From Psychrobacter sp. JB385 (GTDB taxonomy: Bacteria; Pseudomonadota; Gammaproteobacteria; Pseudomonadales; Moraxellaceae): a stretch of 64,000 nt of DNA. The stretch covers positions 62,001 through 126,000 of the forward strand of contig NZ_FUKN01000012.1 of assembly GCF_900163785.1 (NCBI RefSeq). The letters are read 5' to 3'. The position numbers were made by a program, and so were the translations under genes. Below, piece after piece: positions 22,065 to 54,607 of the stretch; position 1 is the first letter of the stretch; each line of letters begins with the position of its first letter. Below the pieces are notes generated by a model. The model was given only the letters and a program-made list of their open reading frames with translations, was not told the DNA's origin and searched no databases.

Positions 22065-22766
22065 CTACTGACTGGTAAATATCACTTTATTCTTACCATT
22101 ATTAGCAGGCTGGCTAATAGTGACTTTGCTATCTAATATATCGCCTCGGGCATTGATTTTGTAGCATTCTGACGATGTGCCTTGAGGGTCAACCTTGAGG
22201 AGTAGATTGCCGGACGTTTCAATACAGAACCACGCCGTATTATTGCTATCTCGCGTCAAAGACCAGTCTTGGTCATAGGTGCCTATTTTTTTGCGCATAC
22301 TACTATCGCTATACACAGTTTCAGTAATCAATTTGCTAGAAGAACCTACCGTCGCCATTTTAGGAATGGTGGTTGTTTGATTCGAGAGTGAGTATTTGCC
22401 AGAGCTGTCTGTAAACCCGTGGAATACCAAAGGATTCAGGGTAAAGTAGTTGATAGCCACCGATTGATCGGTGATTTGATTATTCACTTTATTGATGGTG
22501 TTGACCTCGGCACCTTGTACCGCTTTGTTATTGAACATCATCCGGCCTTTAGGCGTGACGTTGATCTCGGCTGAGGCACTTTGATTACCAATCGTCGCCA
22601 TTAATTTATCACTGCGCGCTTTGGTATAGATATTGAGCATCGCGGTTTCAATAGGATATTGTGTCACTACGTTATTTTGAGTATTGCCCGTTGTTCCGCT
22701 GTTCATACCTGTTGCACAAGCACTCAAACTCAAGGCTGCCACCGTACATAATCCAAGTGTTTTCAT
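22065..22766 (-). CDS. Lipoprotein, unknown function
   Basis: A protein of 233 residues with a lipoprotein signal: MKTLGL start, hydrophobic core and lipobox LSAC followed by ATGMNSG, with Cys19 the likely lipidated residue. The mature part looks beta-rich with no domain I recognise. The frame extends upstream to 22838, but the start at 22766 is fixed by the lipoprotein signal and a GAGGAA ribosome site nine bases away. It is monocistronic. Confidence 0.75.
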   Translation of the reverse strand: MKTLGLCTVAALSLSACATGMNSGTTGNTQNNVVTQYPIETAMLNIYTKARSDKLMATIGNQSASAEINVTPKGRMMFNNKAVQGAEVNTINKVNNQITDQSVAINYFTLNPLVFHGFTDSSGKYSLSNQTTTIPKMATVGSSSKLITETVYSDSSMRKKIGTYDQDWSLTRDSNNTAWFCIETSGNLLLKVDPQGTSSECYKINARGDILDSKVTISQPANNGKNKVIFTSQ

Positions 22767-23218: not shown

Positions 23219-24142
23219 TTAATAGCTGGCTTTGACTTGTGTTTCAAAGAAATCGGCCGCTACATCGTTGTATAAGTTGCAATCTACGACATCTTTTGTA
23301 AAGTCAGTCATAGCAGCATCTTTCACGCCCTTTTGGTAATAGTAAGCATTATAGACTAAACCATTGTATTGTACGGCTCCTACCATATCGCCGTATTCAT
23401 CAGTATACCTAACGGCTGGTAGCTCGTTGTTGCGTCCGACTTTCTCTTTGACAAGATCAGTAGCGGTATTGGCTTCTTCTTCGTCAGCGATCCACTCGTC
23501 AAGCGTTATATCTTGACCAGCATCATAATCATAAAATGCATAGTAGGACTGGGTAGGTGTTTCTTGTAAGATGTAGCACTGAGAGCCATTAGGGAAAGTA
23601 GCACTAAAGTTATCAGAGAAAGAGTTTAAGTCAGTCCTGATACCGGTCGTCGCACTAGACGGAAGCCTACCTACGCCACTAAGGTCAATCGTGACAATAT
23701 CATAAGTAGAGTCGATAGAAGAGCCATCCATTTGGATGCTTGACTTGAACGTATTGCTATCAGTGAAGTTGGCTTTATAAAATTTATCTTCAGACCCTGC
23801 GGGAACTGCCACAAACGTGTTTTTACCTGCATAATACTCTATGTCAGTATATTCACTTGTACTCTCTTGATAAGCGGTAGGTGAGTTACCCACGACGGTA
23901 GAGATAGTTTCAGAAAACTTGTTGTTACCGATGACATAAGCGAGCTTACCCCAGCCCCCTTGGAACTGACCATTCACCACCTCAGTGAAAGAATCGAACA
24001 CCGTATAACTTAGTTCGTTATTAACGATAGGACCGCCATTGTTATCTGGGTTTGACACATTGTTATCGTCATCATCACCGCATCCTGTCAATATTAGTGT
24101 ACTTGCCAATGCGATCCCTGCGTATAGCTTATTGATTTTCAT
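23219..24142 (-). CDS. Lipoprotein, paralogue 1 of a duplicated pair
   Basis: A protein of 307 residues with a lipoprotein signal (MKINKLYAG, lipobox LTGC, likely Cys21) and a run of Asp/Asn after it. The mature part is rich in Tyr, Thr, Asp and Asn and has no recognised domain. It is clearly a paralogue of the gene at 26270-27193: same length, same N-terminus, same ending (FFETQVKASY versus FFETQIKANY). The upstream 100 bases are also nearly identical. A GntP-type permease gene lies between them. Confidence 0.75.
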   Translation of the reverse strand: MKINKLYAGIALASTLILTGCGDDDDNNVSNPDNNGGPIVNNELSYTVFDSFTEVVNGQFQGGWGKLAYVIGNNKFSETISTVVGNSPTAYQESTSEYTDIEYYAGKNTFVAVPAGSEDKFYKANFTDSNTFKSSIQMDGSSIDSTYDIVTIDLSGVGRLPSSATTGIRTDLNSFSDNFSATFPNGSQCYILQETPTQSYYAFYDYDAGQDITLDEWIADEEEANTATDLVKEKVGRNNELPAVRYTDEYGDMVGAVQYNGLVYNAYYYQKGVKDAAMTDFTKDVVDCNLYNDVAADFFETQVKASY

Positions 24143-24297
24143 ATTGTTACCTATTGATAGCTTCCCGTAAGAAATCTAAGGTTAGTCTTATAACTTTCTA
24201 TTTGCAAAACAAATATTCAGTTTTAACAGTGTTGCTACAATAGATCTGCTTTTCTAAAAACCAATGATATTTATATTATTAAAACCAAAAACGCTTT

Positions 24298-26269: not shown

Positions 26270-27193
26270 CTAATAATTGGCTTTGATTTGTGTTTCAAAG
26301 AATTTAGTCGCTACATCGTTATACAGATTACAGTAAACCTCGGAAGTTTCAGGATCAGTATTTTCTTTTTCTTGAATGCCTTTTTGATTGTAGAACGCGT
26401 CGTAAATCAACCCTTTGTATCGGACAACGGCAATGGTATCTCCATCCTCGTCGGTATATCTAGCAGCTGGTAATTCATTATTGAGTCCGATATTTTCTTG
26501 CACAAGATTAGTGACGGTATTGTTTTCTCTTTCATTAGCAATCCACTGCTCAATAGTCATGCTACCTACATCATCACCATCAGCAAAGCTATAGTAATTT
26601 TGCTCAGGGGTCTCTAAAATAATATAGCATTGAGAGCCACTAGGGAAAGTGGCATTAAAGCCCTCAGGGAAATAGTCTAAATCAGTATCTATACCTGTAG
26701 TAGCATTGCGTGGTTGCTTGCCTACGCCCGTAAGGTCAAGAGTAGTAATGTCATAAGTAGAGTTAAAAGTTGAATTATCCATTTGAACTTTTAATGTAAA
26801 GGTATCGCTATCAACAAAGTTGATTTTATAGAACTTACTATCAAAATTCTCAGGAACAGCGGCAAACGTGTTTTTACCGACATAATATTCCAACTCATTA
26901 TCGTCACCTCTACTGTCTTGATAAGCAGTAGGTGAGCTTCCTATCACGGTAGATATTGTTTCCGTCAATCCCCTGTTACTGATTTTGTACGCCAGCTTGC
27001 CCCAAGCTTCTTCATATTTATCATTTGACATGTCAGTGAAAGGATCGAAAGTTGCATAGTTCAGTTCATTATTAACGATAGGCCCCCCATTATTATCTGA
27101 GTTTGATACATTGTCATCGTTATCATTACCGCACCCTGTCAATACTAGTGTAGTTGCCAATGCAATCCCTGCGTATAGCTTATTGGTTTTCAT
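26270..27193 (-). CDS. Lipoprotein, paralogue 2 of a duplicated pair
   Basis: A 307-residue lipoprotein with the same signal (MKTNKLYAG, lipobox LTGC) and layout as the 23219-24142 gene. The two differ at many positions in the mature part (for example DSFTEVVNGQ versus DPFTDMSNDK), so the duplication is not recent, while the upstream sequences remain almost identical. Function unknown; surface-exposed or outer-membrane anchored by inference. Confidence 0.75.
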   Translation of the reverse strand: MKTNKLYAGIALATTLVLTGCGNDNDDNVSNSDNNGGPIVNNELNYATFDPFTDMSNDKYEEAWGKLAYKISNRGLTETISTVIGSSPTAYQDSRGDDNELEYYVGKNTFAAVPENFDSKFYKINFVDSDTFTLKVQMDNSTFNSTYDITTLDLTGVGKQPRNATTGIDTDLDYFPEGFNATFPSGSQCYIILETPEQNYYSFADGDDVGSMTIEQWIANERENNTVTNLVQENIGLNNELPAARYTDEDGDTIAVVRYKGLIYDAFYNQKGIQEKENTDPETSEVYCNLYNDVATKFFETQIKANY

Positions 27194-27340
27194 AATGTTA
27201 CCTATTGTTAGCTTCCCGTAAGAAATATAAGATTAGTCTTATAATTTTCTATTTGCAAAACAAATATTCAGTTTTAACAGTGTTGCTACAATAGCATCCA
27301 TTTCTATATATTAGTATTTCCGCGTCAGCGACTTGACAAC

Positions 27341-27481
27341 GTAATATTGCACGAGCTGTGTCATATCGCCGAGCACAATCATAATGAGCATTTTTGGCGC
27401 TTGTTAACTCAAGTTATGCCGAACTGGAAAGAGGTAAAAGCGAGACTTGATGGTATGGCCGAGCTGTATTTGAATGAGTGA
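27341..27481 (+). pseudogene. 3' remnant of a YgjP/DUF45 metallopeptidase gene
   Basis: An open stretch of 46 codons plus stop reads VILHELCHIAEHN and continues nearly identical to the last 46 residues of the intact gene at 38660-39484; DNA identity is also very high, with a handful of silent changes. There is no start codon or N-terminal part. It lies just outside the left end of the island, so it is a leftover of an earlier related element. Confidence 0.85.
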
Positions 27482-27699
27482 GCAAGAGCGACATTTTAAA
27501 ATTTTTAAGACAATGGCATTGATCGTTTTAAGGTACAAATGAATATTAAATAAGTCACGCTCTTGAGATGCCTGACATATCTTAGAAGTGTTTCGGACAG
27601 CAGTAGATAATTAGTATGGACTGAAAGTCATACTATTAAAAAATTCAAGAGGTTTTAGGAGCGTTTAGGACAAGATAGGAAAACTGAAATAAAAGATGA

Positions 27700-27725
27700 T
27701 TTTATAAGATTGGCGGTGAAGGAGG
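27700..27725. repeat. Left attachment site (att) of the tRNA-Ser island
   Basis: A 26-base sequence identical to 54506-54531. It contains the last 15 bases of the tRNA-Ser acceptor stem region (TGGCGGTGAAGGAGG as read on the plus strand) plus 11 flanking bases, TTTTATAAGAT. Only the tRNA end is present here, as expected for the tRNA-distal end of an integrated element. Confidence 0.88.
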
Positions 27726-27786
27726 AAGTCGTACTTATATTATAAGTTATTGATTTTAAAATATTTTTTATTATAATTTAAAGATA

Positions 27787-27807
27787 TAGACCAACTATTA
27801 GACCAAC
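27787..27807. repeat. Paired TAGACCAAC repeats at left island end
   Basis: TAGACCAAC occurs at 27787-27795 and 27799-27807, 12 bases apart. The same pair with the same spacing lies at 54350-54370, and inverted single copies lie near the integrase start. These are probable arm-type integrase or excisionase binding sites. Confidence 0.6.
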
Positions 27808-27924
27808 ACCTTTTAAGTATTGGATGCGAAACAGATAATGGGATTTATCTCATATTAAATTGAAACAAAATGTTTCTGGGTTATTATTTAGTTTCAAACA
27901 CATATTTTTCCTAAAAAACCATTT

Positions 27925-31221: not shown

Positions 31222-32496
31222 ATGCGACTATTAGCTAAAGAAGAAACACCTTTAGACTGGACTTCTAAAAAAATAGGTTCTTATGTTTTAGGGCATAAAG
31301 GTGGTGCTGCACTACGTCCAAGTGACTTCAGTGATGTTGGATTTCCTGTCATACCAAAAAAAGCTATCCAGCCTACTGGCGAATTGTTGATTGAAAGCCC
31401 TACATATTGTACTAATGAATTTGCTAGTAATAACAAGCGTTCTATTGTCGATAATTCTTATACTATAACTACTCTTCGAGATCTTGTTCCAACCGGACCA
31501 ACTATAGGAACGGTAGTTAATTTTACTAGTGAAGAAAAATATATTCTATCTCAAGGAATATACGGGCTAAAACTTAATGATGATCTTGATAAAAAGTACC
31601 TTTCATATTTGAGTAATACGTCTTTTTATAGAAAAGTAATGCAAAGAATTATGGTCGGAAGTACCCAAGTCCACATCCGCACCCCAGAATACCTTGATTT
31701 AGAAATTCAAATTCCACCTCTCCCAGAACAACAAAAAATCTCCAACATCCTATCCACTTGGGACAAAGCGATCAGCACGACTGAGCGTTTGATTGAGAAT
31801 AGTACCCAGCAGAAAAAAGCGTTGATGCAGCAATTGCTGACGGGTAAAAAGCGGTTGCTGGATGATAATGGGGAACGATTTGCGGGGGAGTGGGAAGAGG
31901 TTAAGTTAGAAGATATAACTATTGTTAATCCTAAAAAACCATCTCAGCCTGAAGACAGCTTTGTCTCTTTTATACCGATGGAAGCAGTTTCAGAAAATGC
32001 TAAGTTGATTAAACAAGAAATTAGGAAGTATGAAGACGTATCTAAGGGCTTTACGGCCTTCATGAATCAAGATGTTGTAGTAGCAAAGATAACCCCGTGC
32101 TTTGAAAATGGTAAAGGCGCATTTGTAGATGATCTTCGTAATGGCATTGGTTTTGGTTCAACAGAATTTCACGTACTTCGTGCCAAAAGACAAAATCATC
32201 CAAGATTCATTTATTATCTAAGTTTGACTAATGATTTCAGAGGTAGAGGTCAACTAAACATGCAGGGCTCAGCAGGCCATAAACGAGTTACTACTGATTA
32301 CGTCAAACTGTATAAGTTCTTAGTGCCACCAACCTATAAAGAACAACAAAAAGTCGCCACCGTATTAACCAATGCCGATAAAGAAATCGAATTGCTTGAA
32401 CAGCAGCTGGCTGATTTACAGCAAGAGAAAAAGGCGTTGATGCAGGTGTTGTTGACGGGTAAGAGGCGGGTGGTAGTTGATGGGGAAGCAATTTAA
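31222..32496 (+). CDS. hsdS: Type I restriction-modification specificity subunit HsdS
   Basis: A full-length S subunit of 424 residues that reads a bipartite DNA target. It has two variable recognition domains, each followed by a conserved helix: LPEQQKISNILSTWDKAI with LMQQLLTGKKRLL, then EQQKVATVLTNADKEIE with LMQVLLTGKRRVV. The recognition domains are AT-rich and the conserved helices GC-rich, which is common in S genes that exchange domains. The start lies three bases after hsdM. The stop overlaps the next ATG by one base. Confidence 0.94.
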   Translation: MRLLAKEETPLDWTSKKIGSYVLGHKGGAALRPSDFSDVGFPVIPKKAIQPTGELLIESPTYCTNEFASNNKRSIVDNSYTITTLRDLVPTGPTIGTVVNFTSEEKYILSQGIYGLKLNDDLDKKYLSYLSNTSFYRKVMQRIMVGSTQVHIRTPEYLDLEIQIPPLPEQQKISNILSTWDKAISTTERLIENSTQQKKALMQQLLTGKKRLLDDNGERFAGEWEEVKLEDITIVNPKKPSQPEDSFVSFIPMEAVSENAKLIKQEIRKYEDVSKGFTAFMNQDVVVAKITPCFENGKGAFVDDLRNGIGFGSTEFHVLRAKRQNHPRFIYYLSLTNDFRGRGQLNMQGSAGHKRVTTDYVKLYKFLVPPTYKEQQKVATVLTNADKEIELLEQQLADLQQEKKALMQVLLTGKRRVVVDGEAI

Positions 32497-33029
32497 TGGA
32501 AGTTAGTCCTCGAATAAGTGATGAAATACTAGAGAGAAATTTAGAGAGAATAATAGGCTTTGTGGCGAACTGTGATAGCAAAGTATCCTACTTACTCTCT
32601 GCTGTAGGAATTATTCTTACTATCTTATTTGCTATAAAGCCTACAAATCTCAACTTTCTGAAATCAGCTCTAGGTAGTGATGAGACGAATGTACTCCTTG
32701 GATTTAGTGTATTAACAATTATTTTGTCTTCATTCTATTTTCTACAAGGGGTATATCAATTATCACAAGCATTAACAGCACGAACAAAAATACATTCTGG
32801 AAATAGCAGCTCTATGATCTTCTTTGGTGCGATATCCGCTCAAGCAGGTAGTCATGATTACTTACAGAATATCGAGAAAAGTGAGTATAGCTACAGAGAG
32901 GATCTAGCTTGTCAGATATACATTAATTCAAAAATATGCACAGAGAAATTCGAAAGATACAACAAAGGCTTTAAACTCATTTTATTTAGTTTGCCATTAC
33001 TTGTAGTTTCTTGGTCCTACTTGTTTTAA
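32496..33029 (+). CDS. Pycsar effector-like membrane protein (PycTM)
   Basis: A protein of 177 residues: a cytoplasmic N-terminal helix, membrane segments at about 30-47 and 66-88, a cytoplasmic loop with SSMIFFGAIS and EDLACQIYINSKI, and a last membrane segment at 159-176. This layout and the FFG.I and DL..QIY.nS.I patterns match PycTM effectors, which on binding cyclic pyrimidine nucleotides damage the inner membrane and stop phage spread. The identification is from memory of the family plus the cyclase gene immediately downstream. The start overlaps the hsdS stop (TAATG), with GGGGAAG upstream, so it is part of the hsd operon. Confidence 0.78.
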   Translation: MEVSPRISDEILERNLERIIGFVANCDSKVSYLLSAVGIILTILFAIKPTNLNFLKSALGSDETNVLLGFSVLTIILSSFYFLQGVYQLSQALTARTKIHSGNSSSMIFFGAISAQAGSHDYLQNIEKSEYSYREDLACQIYINSKICTEKFERYNKGFKLILFSLPLLVVSWSYLF

Positions 33030-33043
33030 ATAGGGAGAAAAAA

Positions 33044-33778
33044 ATGTCGGAATATGATTATAAGCAAGGAAAGAACAGAGTGGAGTCTATCCTTGATAAC
33101 TACATGAAAATAGAAGAAAAAAATAAGCTTCCAAGTGATGATAACTTCACTTTTGAAAATGGTTATTTGTCATGGGTGACTGCTATATTTGTTGATATAA
33201 GAGACTCTACTTCTTTATTTTCTAAAAATGATGAACCTACTGCTAAGTTAGTTAGAGCATTTACTTCAGAGATTATTGAGATTCTTAGAGATGATGAAAA
33301 TATGCGTGAAATAGGTATTCGTGGAGACTGCGTTTATGCGATTTATACTACCCCTGAAAAATCCGATATTCTAGAATGTGCTAACAAAACTTTTTATATT
33401 AATACTTTTATTAATATGTTTAACAAATTACTCGAAAATAGAGGACAGGATAAAATTAGAGTAGGGATTGGTATGGCTACCGATAAAGAACTAGTAATTA
33501 AAGCGGGTAGGAAAGGAGTAAGTATTAACAGTAAAGTATGGATAGGAAAGGCTGTAACTATTGCATCGAAATTGTCTTCTTATGGTGATAAAAACTTCTA
33601 TTCTAGATTAATGTATTCTCCAGTATCTTACGAAAACTTTATTGACGGTTTTGAAAAGAAACAACCAAACGATAATGTAAGAAACTGGTTTTCTTATCAA
33701 AGCGGCTTAAATGCTTATGGATCAGGGATTTTGATGAGTGAATTTGATGATTGGATCAAAGGTGGTTTCGCAGAATAA
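33044..33778 (+). CDS. Pycsar-type pyrimidine nucleotide cyclase (PycC-like)
   Basis: A class III nucleotidyl cyclase of 244 residues. It shows the metal-binding FVDIRDST (Asp51), the second metal Asp95 in GIRGDCVYAIY, RVGIGMATDKELVIKAG, and the IGKAVTIASKLSS helix. In Pycsar systems such stand-alone cyclases make cCMP or cUMP on infection and switch on a membrane effector. The PycTM-like gene ends 14 bases before this start, which strongly supports the assignment; a generic adenylate/guanylate cyclase is the alternative. The ATG at 33044 has GGGAG six to seven bases upstream. The product (cCMP or cUMP) cannot be told from the sequence. Confidence 0.82.
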   Translation: MSEYDYKQGKNRVESILDNYMKIEEKNKLPSDDNFTFENGYLSWVTAIFVDIRDSTSLFSKNDEPTAKLVRAFTSEIIEILRDDENMREIGIRGDCVYAIYTTPEKSDILECANKTFYINTFINMFNKLLENRGQDKIRVGIGMATDKELVIKAGRKGVSINSKVWIGKAVTIASKLSSYGDKNFYSRLMYSPVSYENFIDGFEKKQPNDNVRNWFSYQSGLNAYGSGILMSEFDDWIKGGFAE

Positions 33779-38659: not shown

Positions 38660-39484
38660 ATGACTGAGAATGGCATTTTTTATTATGGTCAAGATAAGAT
38701 CTACTACGAAATCGTGCGTAAAGAAGTAACGTATAAAGCAACAACAGGTAAGTCTAAAGCTGACATTCTGACCACTGAAAAAAGCAAACCTCGCAAAGTT
38801 GTGATTAAGGTACATCCTGATCAACGTGTGGTTGCCACCGCACCTATCGATGCGACGAATGAGATGATACATGACGCGATGATAAAGCGTGCGCGCTGGA
38901 TATGGCAAAACCTACAGGACTTTGCTAAGCAAAAAGACCATGTATTGCCCAAACGTTATGTCAGCGGTGAGACTCAGTTTTATCTGGGTCGTCGTTATGT
39001 GTTAAAAGTGATAGCAGATGCAAAAACTAACGATAGAATAAATAGCACGGTGAAGCTCAGTCGCGGTAAGTTACATGTAGAATTGTCTCAAAGTGATTCT
39101 GAATTAGACGCTGAAAAAAGAGCGGTTCTAGTGAAAAGCTTGATTGATAAATGGTATAAAAATAAATTTACGTCGGTCTCTAGAGAGAGGCTTGAAGCCT
39201 TGATACATAAGGCCTCATGGGTGAAAAATAATCCTTCATTGAAGTTAATAATAATGAAAAAACAATGGGGAAGTTGCTCAAATAAAGGAAATTTAATCCT
39301 CAATCCGCACTTAGTCAAAGCGCCGAAAGAATGCATCGATTATGTGATACTGCATGAACTGTGTCATATCGCCGAGCACAATCATAGTGAGCATTTTTGG
39401 CGCTTGTTAACCCAAGTTATGCCGAACTGGAAAGAGGTAAAAGCGAGGCTTGATGGTATGGCTGAGTTGTATTTGAATGATTAG
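38660..39484 (+). CDS. YgjP/DUF45-type zinc metallopeptidase
   Basis: A protein of 274 residues with the zinc motif HELCH at 232-236 followed by AEHNHSEHFW, where a further His completes the site; KKQWGSCSNKGNLILNP just before is typical of the YgjP/DUF45 family. These proteins are frequently encoded next to hsdR, with unknown role; protease control of restriction is a reasonable guess. It starts 10 bases after hsdR and ends the operon. A 3' fragment of a second copy lies at 27341-27481. Confidence 0.9.
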   Translation: MTENGIFYYGQDKIYYEIVRKEVTYKATTGKSKADILTTEKSKPRKVVIKVHPDQRVVATAPIDATNEMIHDAMIKRARWIWQNLQDFAKQKDHVLPKRYVSGETQFYLGRRYVLKVIADAKTNDRINSTVKLSRGKLHVELSQSDSELDAEKRAVLVKSLIDKWYKNKFTSVSRERLEALIHKASWVKNNPSLKLIIMKKQWGSCSNKGNLILNPHLVKAPKECIDYVILHELCHIAEHNHSEHFWRLLTQVMPNWKEVKARLDGMAELYLND

Positions 39485-52883: not shown

Positions 52884-54233
52884 TTATAATAGCTCTTGTA
52901 ACTCTGTTTTTGTCATACCTTTATTAATGAGTGCTTGAATAAGTTGTTGTTTATTCCTTGCTTCAAGGCTGTCAGATTGATGATTGACTAACGACTGCTC
53001 AATTTGCTGCCTAGCAGTTTGAAAGTCTACTACCTCACCTTTGTCTCTGAGCAGATCTAAAAAATCAGCCCAAACTTGCATGATCTTACGGCGCTCTTCT
53101 AAGTGTTGCGCGTGGTTATAAACTGCGCGAATGCTGCTTTTTTTATCATGGGCCATCTGCTTTTCGATGGCATCTCCCATATAGCCAAGCTCATTTAGGT
53201 TAGTGGATGCGATATGACGGAAACCGTGTCCGGTCTGTCTACCAGCATATCCTAGTATATCTAGCGCGTTATTGATGAATTCTTCGCTATAAGGCTGGTG
53301 CATACCAGTATGATAGAACACATATTCGTATTGGCCTGTGATGGGTCTCATCTCTTCTAACGCTGCTAGCATTTGGTCTGACAAAGGAACAACATGCTTA
53401 CGTGCAATCTTAAGGTTATCAATATCGACACGCCATAGACGGTTGGGGAAGTCGATATGTTCCCATTTCATCATACGTAGCTCGATAGTACGACAGAATG
53501 AATAGGCTAAAAATTTCATGCCCAATCGAGTTTGGTCATGACCATGATAGCTTTCAATATCTTGCAAAAGCTTAGGTAGCTCACTAAGCTCAACATGTTT
53601 CATGTGCTTAGTCTTGGCTTTTGGATATAGCTCTTTCAACCCTTCAGTATGATTTACCTCGATTAGACGCTCTCTCTTAGCTCTTTTAAGAATATTAGCA
53701 ACGAGATCAATAGTGCGTCTGGTTACTTCTCGTGGTGGTGTCCCTTTTTTAGCTCTACTTTCAATATTATCTGCCATTGACTTACAATCTTCGAATGTCA
53801 CATCTTTTAAAGCGATACCTTTAAAGCTCGGCAGCACGTCTTTGTGCATTCGGTTGTAGTCTTGCTGATAGGTGCGAGGTTTCACGTTGCGTTCACGCTC
53901 CTCTAGCCATTCAAGCGCATATTCATTGAACATTTTAGCTTGCTCGTTGGCAAGCTTATCTTGACGTTTTTTATTCTTTGGATTGACCCCATTAGCTACT
54001 AAAGCCTTGATATCAGAGTTAGCTACTCTCGCTTCTGCTAAGCCCATCTGCGGGTATGTACCTAAGGTAGTCTTCTGCTGCTTACCATCGAAGCGATATG
54101 CACTTACCCATGTTCGCGTGCCTGAGCTACGTACCAGTAACTGCAAACCTTGCTGATCGCTATATTTATCTGGCCGAGAAGGGGTGCATTTATCAGTGGG
54201 TTTGAGCTTACGAATTTTAGTATCACTTAACAT
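52884..54233 (-). CDS. int: Tyrosine site-specific integrase (P4 type)
   Basis: A 449-residue phage-like recombinase: N-terminal DUF4102 arm-binding domain (LQLLVRSSGTRTWVSAYRF), core-binding domain (about 100-200) and catalytic domain with Arg248 (FCRTIELRMMKW), His336-x-x-Arg339 (GHGFRH), His362 and the nucleophile Tyr372 (AVYNHAQ). All catalytic residues are present, so it looks active. It lies 270 bases from tRNA-Ser and would catalyse integration and excision of the island at the 26-base repeats. A TAGACCAAC copy, inverted, abuts its ATG, suggesting self-regulation. Confidence 0.95.
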   Translation of the reverse strand: MLSDTKIRKLKPTDKCTPSRPDKYSDQQGLQLLVRSSGTRTWVSAYRFDGKQQKTTLGTYPQMGLAEARVANSDIKALVANGVNPKNKKRQDKLANEQAKMFNEYALEWLEERERNVKPRTYQQDYNRMHKDVLPSFKGIALKDVTFEDCKSMADNIESRAKKGTPPREVTRRTIDLVANILKRAKRERLIEVNHTEGLKELYPKAKTKHMKHVELSELPKLLQDIESYHGHDQTRLGMKFLAYSFCRTIELRMMKWEHIDFPNRLWRVDIDNLKIARKHVVPLSDQMLAALEEMRPITGQYEYVFYHTGMHQPYSEEFINNALDILGYAGRQTGHGFRHIASTNLNELGYMGDAIEKQMAHDKKSSIRAVYNHAQHLEERRKIMQVWADFLDLLRDKGEVVDFQTARQQIEQSLVNHQSDSLEARNKQQLIQALINKGMTKTELQELL

Positions 54234-54370
54234 GTTGGTCTATTTCCTATACCTACGAGCTATATGTTTAAAGCGTTAAGACGATTACGTTGGTCTAAGG
54301 CATATAAAAATAGATCGAATGTTGGTCTAATTGATGAATATATAGATAATAGACCAACGAATAGACCAAC
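54234..54370. promoter_or_regulatory. Cluster of TAGACCAAC sites upstream of int
   Basis: GTTGGTCTA occurs at 54234-54242 (touching the int start), 54289-54297 and 54321-54329; the reverse orientation TAGACCAAC occurs at 54350-54358 and 54362-54370. With the pair at the left end, seven copies are confined to the island termini, as expected of integrase arm-type sites that also block the int promoter. Confidence 0.65.
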
Positions 54371-54505
54371 ACAAGAAACGGGATAGGTGGGTTATGTTCG
54401 GATAGCTTGGGAAAACAGTAGACATAAAAAAAACGCTAGACGCGTTATTTATAAAGGGATTAAGGGGGGTTGAGGAGAGGGTGGGACAGGATAGGAAAAC
54501 TAGGG

Positions 54506-54531
54506 TTTTATAAGATTGGCGGTGAAGGAGG
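54506..54531. repeat. Right attachment site (att) at the tRNA-Ser 3' end
   Basis: Identical to 27700-27725. Here it overlaps the last 15 bases of the intact tRNA-Ser. A weaker match extends to the left of both copies (shared GATAGGAAAACT, at 27674-27685 and 54490-54501). Confidence 0.88.
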
Positions 54532-54607
54532 GATTCGAACCCTCGATACGCGATTAACGTATACACACTTTCCAGGCGTGCGGTTTCAGCCACTCACCCA
54601 CTTCACC
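54517..54607 (-). tRNA. tRNA-Ser (anticodon GGA)
   Basis: A 91-base tRNA with a long variable arm, from GGTGAAG to CTTCACCGCCA. The anticodon stem-loop CACGC-CTGGAAA-GTGTG gives GGA. It is intact although it is the island's integration site, because the att repeat restores its 3' end. Confidence 0.95.

Follow-up and report, generated by a model that had tools for sequence, protein, structure and literature searches.

In Vibrio, the islands IEVpaBan1a and IEVpaBan1b are arranged in tandem at one attachment site, dusA (PMC8409611). The Proteus plasmid pZN5-103kb carries a type I restriction-modification operon in the order hsdS-hsdM-hsdS-hsdR-peptidase, the last gene encoding a YgjP/SprT-type metallopeptidase. 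The end of such an operon is found as a truncated relic in the window analysed here, a stretch of 64,000 nucleotides from Psychrobacter sp. JB385, where it lies just outside the left end of an island integrated at a tRNA-Ser gene.

The present island and the relic at its left end

The island is bounded by two identical 26-bp copies of TTTTATAAGATTGGCGGTGAAGGAGG, the attL core at 27700-27725 and the attR core at 54506-54531, the latter overlapping the 3′ end of tRNA-Ser(GGA) (54517-54607, minus strand). It encodes a tyrosine integrase (52884-54233, minus strand; PF00589 and PF13356) and an intact ygjP-like gene (38660-39484, plus strand; PF01863), the paralogue of the relic. Paired TAGACCAAC direct repeats lie just inside both island ends (27786-27809 and 54349-54372, 22 of 24 positions identical) and recur within attL in G054 and G027 as well as at the right ends in G104 (G numbers designate other Psychrobacter genomes); they look like candidate arm-binding sites of the integrase. 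A hairpin followed by a T-run on the tRNA strand at the right end of the island (54426-54446), spotted by eye rather than by folding, is perhaps a putative replacement terminator for the tRNA. Within the type I restriction operon, a Pycsar-like pair occupies 32496-33778, with an adenylate/guanylate cyclase domain and a PycTM match just under the Pfam cut-off.

Left of attL, positions 27341-27481 (plus strand) hold the 3′ end of a ygjP-like metallopeptidase gene, 46 codons and a stop, at 93% identity to 39344-39480 in the island copy. An earlier note on this DNA had reported such a fragment beside the att repeat, and alignment of 27.3-27.7 kb with 38.6-39.5 kb bears this out: 27341-27477 aligns to the island gene without gaps (128 of 137 nt identical, E 2e-55), and the frame at 27341-27478 translates to VILHELCHIAEHNHNEHFWRLLTQVMPNWKEVKARLDGMAELYLNE, followed by TGA, in phase with the island ygjP. 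The two copies differ at 10 of the 46 codons (8 synonymous and 2 non-synonymous changes), and, judged from sequence, the relic is an allele separate from the island copy. Over 139 bases, the nearest of the 29 distinct tails compared were those of G002 and the island copy (127 identical bases each), followed by G035 (126) and G104 (125). Searching the complete genome from which the window comes at the DNA level (E 0.001) turned up these two copies of the tail and no third. No function is evident for the 46-codon piece.

Homology of the relic to other genomes begins at about 27333 in DNA searches of the genus with 27307-27760 and 27300-27760. An extension of the ygjP frame left of 27341 (PRQRLDN) was considered and set aside, the similarity there being only weak; homology is safe from about 27333. 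The DNA between the stop and the tRNA trailer (27482-27583) is uncovered by the genus matches listed, and when the origin of 27479-27600 was sought in the loci of relatives, the matches were weak and none was convincing. A phage collection gave zero matches, and in a class-level search 16 of 369 genomes matched, mostly weakly and with the window's own genome among them.

Survey of tRNA-Ser(GGA) sites in Psychrobacter

We surveyed 102 tRNA-Ser(GGA) sites from 104 other Psychrobacter genomes, with G087 (no full tRNA among the matches listed) and G073 (full tRNA not found by the script) left out. The stretches read left of the tRNA ranged from ~1.3 to 20 kb, many of them ending at contig ends, and absences are lower bounds. 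A related tyrosine integrase lies within 700 bp of the tRNA at 40 of the 102 sites, with none there at the remaining 62. At most of the integrase-bearing sites listed, the integrase is followed by YfjJ, DUF932, YqaJ and RDF-like genes, matching the window. Among the 62 integrase-less sites, hsdR and/or a near-complete ygjP is present within 20 kb at 11, and at 22 a flanking chromosomal gene lies no more than 3.5 kb away while matches to hsdR, ygjP, DUF932 or RDF are missing; these 22 "island-gene-free" flanks were selected solely by the lack of integrase, hsdR, ygjP, RDF and DUF932 matches. A further class, 19 attL sites with the window counted, was picked by script (core with at most 2 mismatches, tRNA not next).

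Tails of ygjP were sought in the 700 bp left of each site, or less where the locus ended. They were found left of attL at 3 of the 19 attL sites, namely the window, G054 (256 nt, 81%) and G027 (57 nt, 79%, decayed), and at 1 of the 102 tRNA-adjacent sites, that of G078 (36 nt, 81%); one shuffle per site yielded zero tails. With a tail at a single tRNA-adjacent site, tRNA flanks in the genus do not ordinarily include such a relic, and the possibility raised in the earlier note, that the relic belongs to a conserved flank of strains without islands, fails.

The tRNA-Ser trailer beside the att cores

The earlier note had also taken the similarity left of both att copies, GATAGGAAAACT with weaker similarity beyond, as the trace of an old island that left its tRNA-proximal end behind. 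GATAGGAAAACT occurs at 27674-27685 and 54490-54501, and both copies sit within an ungapped 84-nt repeat of 71% identity (gapped match 73%, E 8e-11). The left copy falls in the 3′ trailer of tRNA-Ser (27584-27699), which was split from the tRNA by the present island and matches DNA beside the tRNA in relatives. In 12 of the 22 flanks without detected island genes, its portion at 27584-27645 has a match adjoining the tRNA (83-92%), and this portion is likewise matched next to the integrase in G016, G019 and G062. Tracts like GATAGGAAAACT, with at most 2 mismatches, were present in 16 of the 22 island-gene-free flanks, 25 of 62 integrase-less sites, 29 of 40 integrase-bearing sites and 11 of 19 attL sites, compared with 34 of 2420 shuffles. 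GATAGGAAAACT was thus rejected as a mark of an old island. The stretch back to ~27584 corresponds to the tRNA trailer in other genomes, among them flanks where island genes were not found, and the supposed tRNA-proximal end therefore cannot be taken for island DNA. Similarity left of both att copies is expected wherever the right end of the island brings a trailer copy of its own, and it does not speak for an older island.

In a tree of 124 trailers, the window's left trailer falls in a seven-member group (support 0.79), four members of which are integrase-bearing (G013, G016, G019 and G062). This group is nested in a clade of 35 (support 0.92), in which 28 of the 30 members listed are attL or integrase-less sites. 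The three nearest trailers by tree distance are integrase-bearing, whereas by pairwise score the eleven closest all come from attL or integrase-less sites.

Restriction-modification blocks at the same tRNA and their scars

In the stretches read beside the tRNA in G104, G054, G090, G027 and G044, coverage exceeds 60% for each of hsdM, hsdR and ygjP, and an hsd-ygjP block is also present at this tRNA in G077. The order in G104 is a lipoprotein-like gene (73% at the protein level), shared upstream DNA (86%), a paralogue of the gene at 22065, hsdM (95%), hsdS, hsdR (92%) and ygjP (80%), with 3.3 kb from ygjP to the tRNA. In G024, att is followed by the lipoprotein-like gene, its upstream DNA, hsdM, hsdR and ygjP, up to near the contig end. 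The G054 block is near-complete, with broken frames in hsdM, hsdR and ygjP. In G077 and G101, hsdR-ygjP-M15-DUF819 lies directly left of the trailer match, followed by the tRNA, and an integrase was not found; in G077, the 17.6 kb that were read to the left of hsdM contain no att core with at most 3 mismatches. A block of the same family is island cargo in G003, with an att core at the boundary and the integrase at the tRNA, as it is in the window. Where integrase-less sites have a near-complete ygjP, this gene ends 1.2-7.5 kb from the tRNA, and no genome examined carries a block with the window's spacing, in which the ygjP stop is 102 bp from the trailer.

In G002 (C1:2400000-2415000), hsdR-ygjP-M15-DUF819 (DUF819 98% identical at the DNA level) lies ~740 kb from the tRNA-Ser site of that genome, and the block therefore moves between sites. 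Among the matches listed, G002 is the closest to the window in the tRNA-side flank (87%), and both the lipoprotein-like gene and the tail are absent left of its attL.

Remnants of the other end of the block were also detected. A decayed 5′ tip of hsdM lies beside the lipoprotein-like gene in G041 (57 nt, 76%) and likewise in G042, where local scores of 37 and 58 were obtained with two references, the 58 deriving mostly from DNA just upstream of hsdM; the highest scores among 300 shuffles each were 29 and 31, short of the observed value for both references. This hsdM-head scar is the counterpart of the window's ygjP-tail scar. Other scars in the stretches are a short ygjP tail in G046, an hsdR head with a ygjP tail in G047 and an hsdM head in G034, and partial ygjP matches occur in G006, G013, G018, G052, G062 and G073. 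Beyond the genus, orphan ygjP tails were found in Reinekea forsetii, Catenovulum sediminis and a Shewanella aestuarii plasmid. The plasmid tail (L281:2404-2580) is flanked by a cytochrome c gene on one side and a small hypothetical gene on the other, and a tyrosine recombinase and a further restriction system are encoded nearby. The tails start at different codons (~190, 217, 223-226, 247 and 253), and a common start point, as an attachment site would give, was rejected on these differences. Both ends of the block being left, with varying breakpoints, is as would be expected of ordinary deletion.

The lipoprotein-like gene and the probable deletion junction

The gene at 26270-27193 (minus strand) is, by the gene order in relatives, the probable left neighbour or a remnant of the same block; its label as lipoprotein-like was read by eye from the gene start, and it has no Pfam match. 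Its upstream region (27194-27306) is 93% identical to that of a paralogue at 23219-24142. Homology to the upstream regions of lipoprotein-like genes stops at 27292 for G024 and at 27295 for G104, and homology to the upstream DNA of the paralogue stops at 27306. The interval 27296-27333, which runs up to the start of ygjP homology, is the probable deletion junction between this upstream DNA and ygjP codon ~223-226. The two paralogous regions (23219-24256 and 26270-27306) are mostly ~58-71% identical per 80-base step and reach 86-94% at the 5′ end and upstream, a pattern that suggests gene conversion.

The lipoprotein-like gene is found upstream of hsdM in G104, with one gene between, and in G024. 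Orthologues in G099, G057 and G048 lie at other sites, where the 14-15 kb read contained no hsdM, and G026 carries the gene at the same tRNA site in the absence of hsd genes. A strict tie of this gene to hsd genes was ruled out by these four genomes. Its link to the lost block is likely and not certain, because orthologues also exist without hsd genes.

Discussion

The relic is very probably a scar: a type I restriction-modification block (hsdM ... hsdR-ygjP) once situated between the lipoprotein-like gene and the tRNA trailer was deleted down to its ygjP tail. The tail is identified by its sequence and phase, it is placed outside attL, and in relatives the same site holds blocks as well as other scars of a single block end. 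An older hsdM-hsdR-ygjP block would have sat between the gene at 26270-27193, which we infer to have flanked it, and the trailer of tRNA-Ser. Nearly the whole block would have been removed by a deletion reaching from just upstream of that gene on the left to about ygjP codon 223-226 on the right. The present island, which has an hsd-ygjP block of its own, is integrated at the tRNA 3′ end, and the scar therefore lies outside attL. The view of the earlier note that the fragment is left from something that once occupied this tRNA is borne out for such a block by the blocks in G104, G090, G027, G077 and G054, the tails outside attL in G054 and G027, and the hsdM-head scar in G041 and G042. What counts against this account is the unmatched 102 bp after the stop, the spacing, the lipoprotein-like orthologues without hsd genes, and the lack of both gene and tail in G002.

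The lost block may have been inserted left of the native trailer by other means than as an integrase island, which has somewhat less than an even chance in our estimate. G077 and G101 have this arrangement today, with the integrase not found, and the pairwise scores of the window's left trailer favour it; however, in G003 and the window, att-bounded islands with an integrase at the tRNA carry blocks of this family, and those of G077 and G101 may thus be decayed islands. It is rather doubtful that an older integrase-bearing island of the same family was co-resident to the left of the present one and then decayed, as the earlier note had supposed. A search of relatives for tandem islands at this tRNA did return G104, in which two island right ends lie ~23 kb apart, the one at the tRNA 83% identical to the window's right end over 273 nt and the left one 83% over 168 nt, the latter with integrase-side repeats, a trailer and a decayed att core; a window-type integrase was not found in the G104 DNA read. 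Two right ends in a row mean that island build-up at this site happens, and the integrase at the tRNA in 40 of 102 sites and the grouping of the window's left trailer with four integrase-bearing sites in a group of seven also fit co-residence. Yet this trailer is without the integrase-side TAGACCAAC repeats, no integrase or integrase-side remnant was seen at 27482-27699, and the window has only two att cores in a search allowing up to 5 mismatches, which a more decayed core could escape. Moreover, further left in the 102 stretches, none of which runs past 20 kb, a second integrase of the window's type was not found, and the eleven trailers nearest by pairwise score are attL or integrase-less.

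The remaining readings are far less probable. Least likely of all is a recent partial duplication of ygjP from the present island as the source of the tail: the island copy ties as the closest to the relic (127 of 139 among 29 distinct tails), but 10 of 46 codons differ between them, the copies of G002, G035 and G104 are equally or nearly as close (127, 126 and 125 of 139), and the tails outside attL in G054 and G027 carry alleles of their own. Hardly more credible is a role of the ygjP 3′ end as a site of recombination or attachment, by which tails would be left systematically. Orphan tails in the Shewanella plasmid, Reinekea and Catenovulum fit that idea, whereas the differing start codons and the block heads left as well (hsdM tips in G034 and in G041/G042) speak against it; about five tails against two independent heads, at unequal detection sensitivity, give no clear bias. 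The recurrence of orphan tails, about five in Psychrobacter besides those in Shewanella, Reinekea and Catenovulum, might alternatively mark the ygjP 3′ end as a preferred endpoint in the swap or loss of hsd blocks, a notion that is slightly better placed but still very improbable. If it were true, such tails would mark past defence-system turnover at a site.

The earlier block deleted to its tail looks like ordinary island turnover at a busy tRNA insertion site and, for the window alone, a minor and ordinary finding. Across the genus, the locus records how type I restriction-modification blocks have been gained and lost repeatedly at a single tRNA-Ser site, with scars of both block ends, and gene tails outside attL can act as a fossil record of earlier defence systems. 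The second element of the Vibrio dusA tandem still encodes two predicted integrases (PMC8409611), whereas the older element of the window is a gene tail alone, and co-residence is for the window no more than a candidate reading. Compared with the operon of Proteus pZN5-103kb, which ends in its peptidase gene, the window relic keeps only 46 codons.
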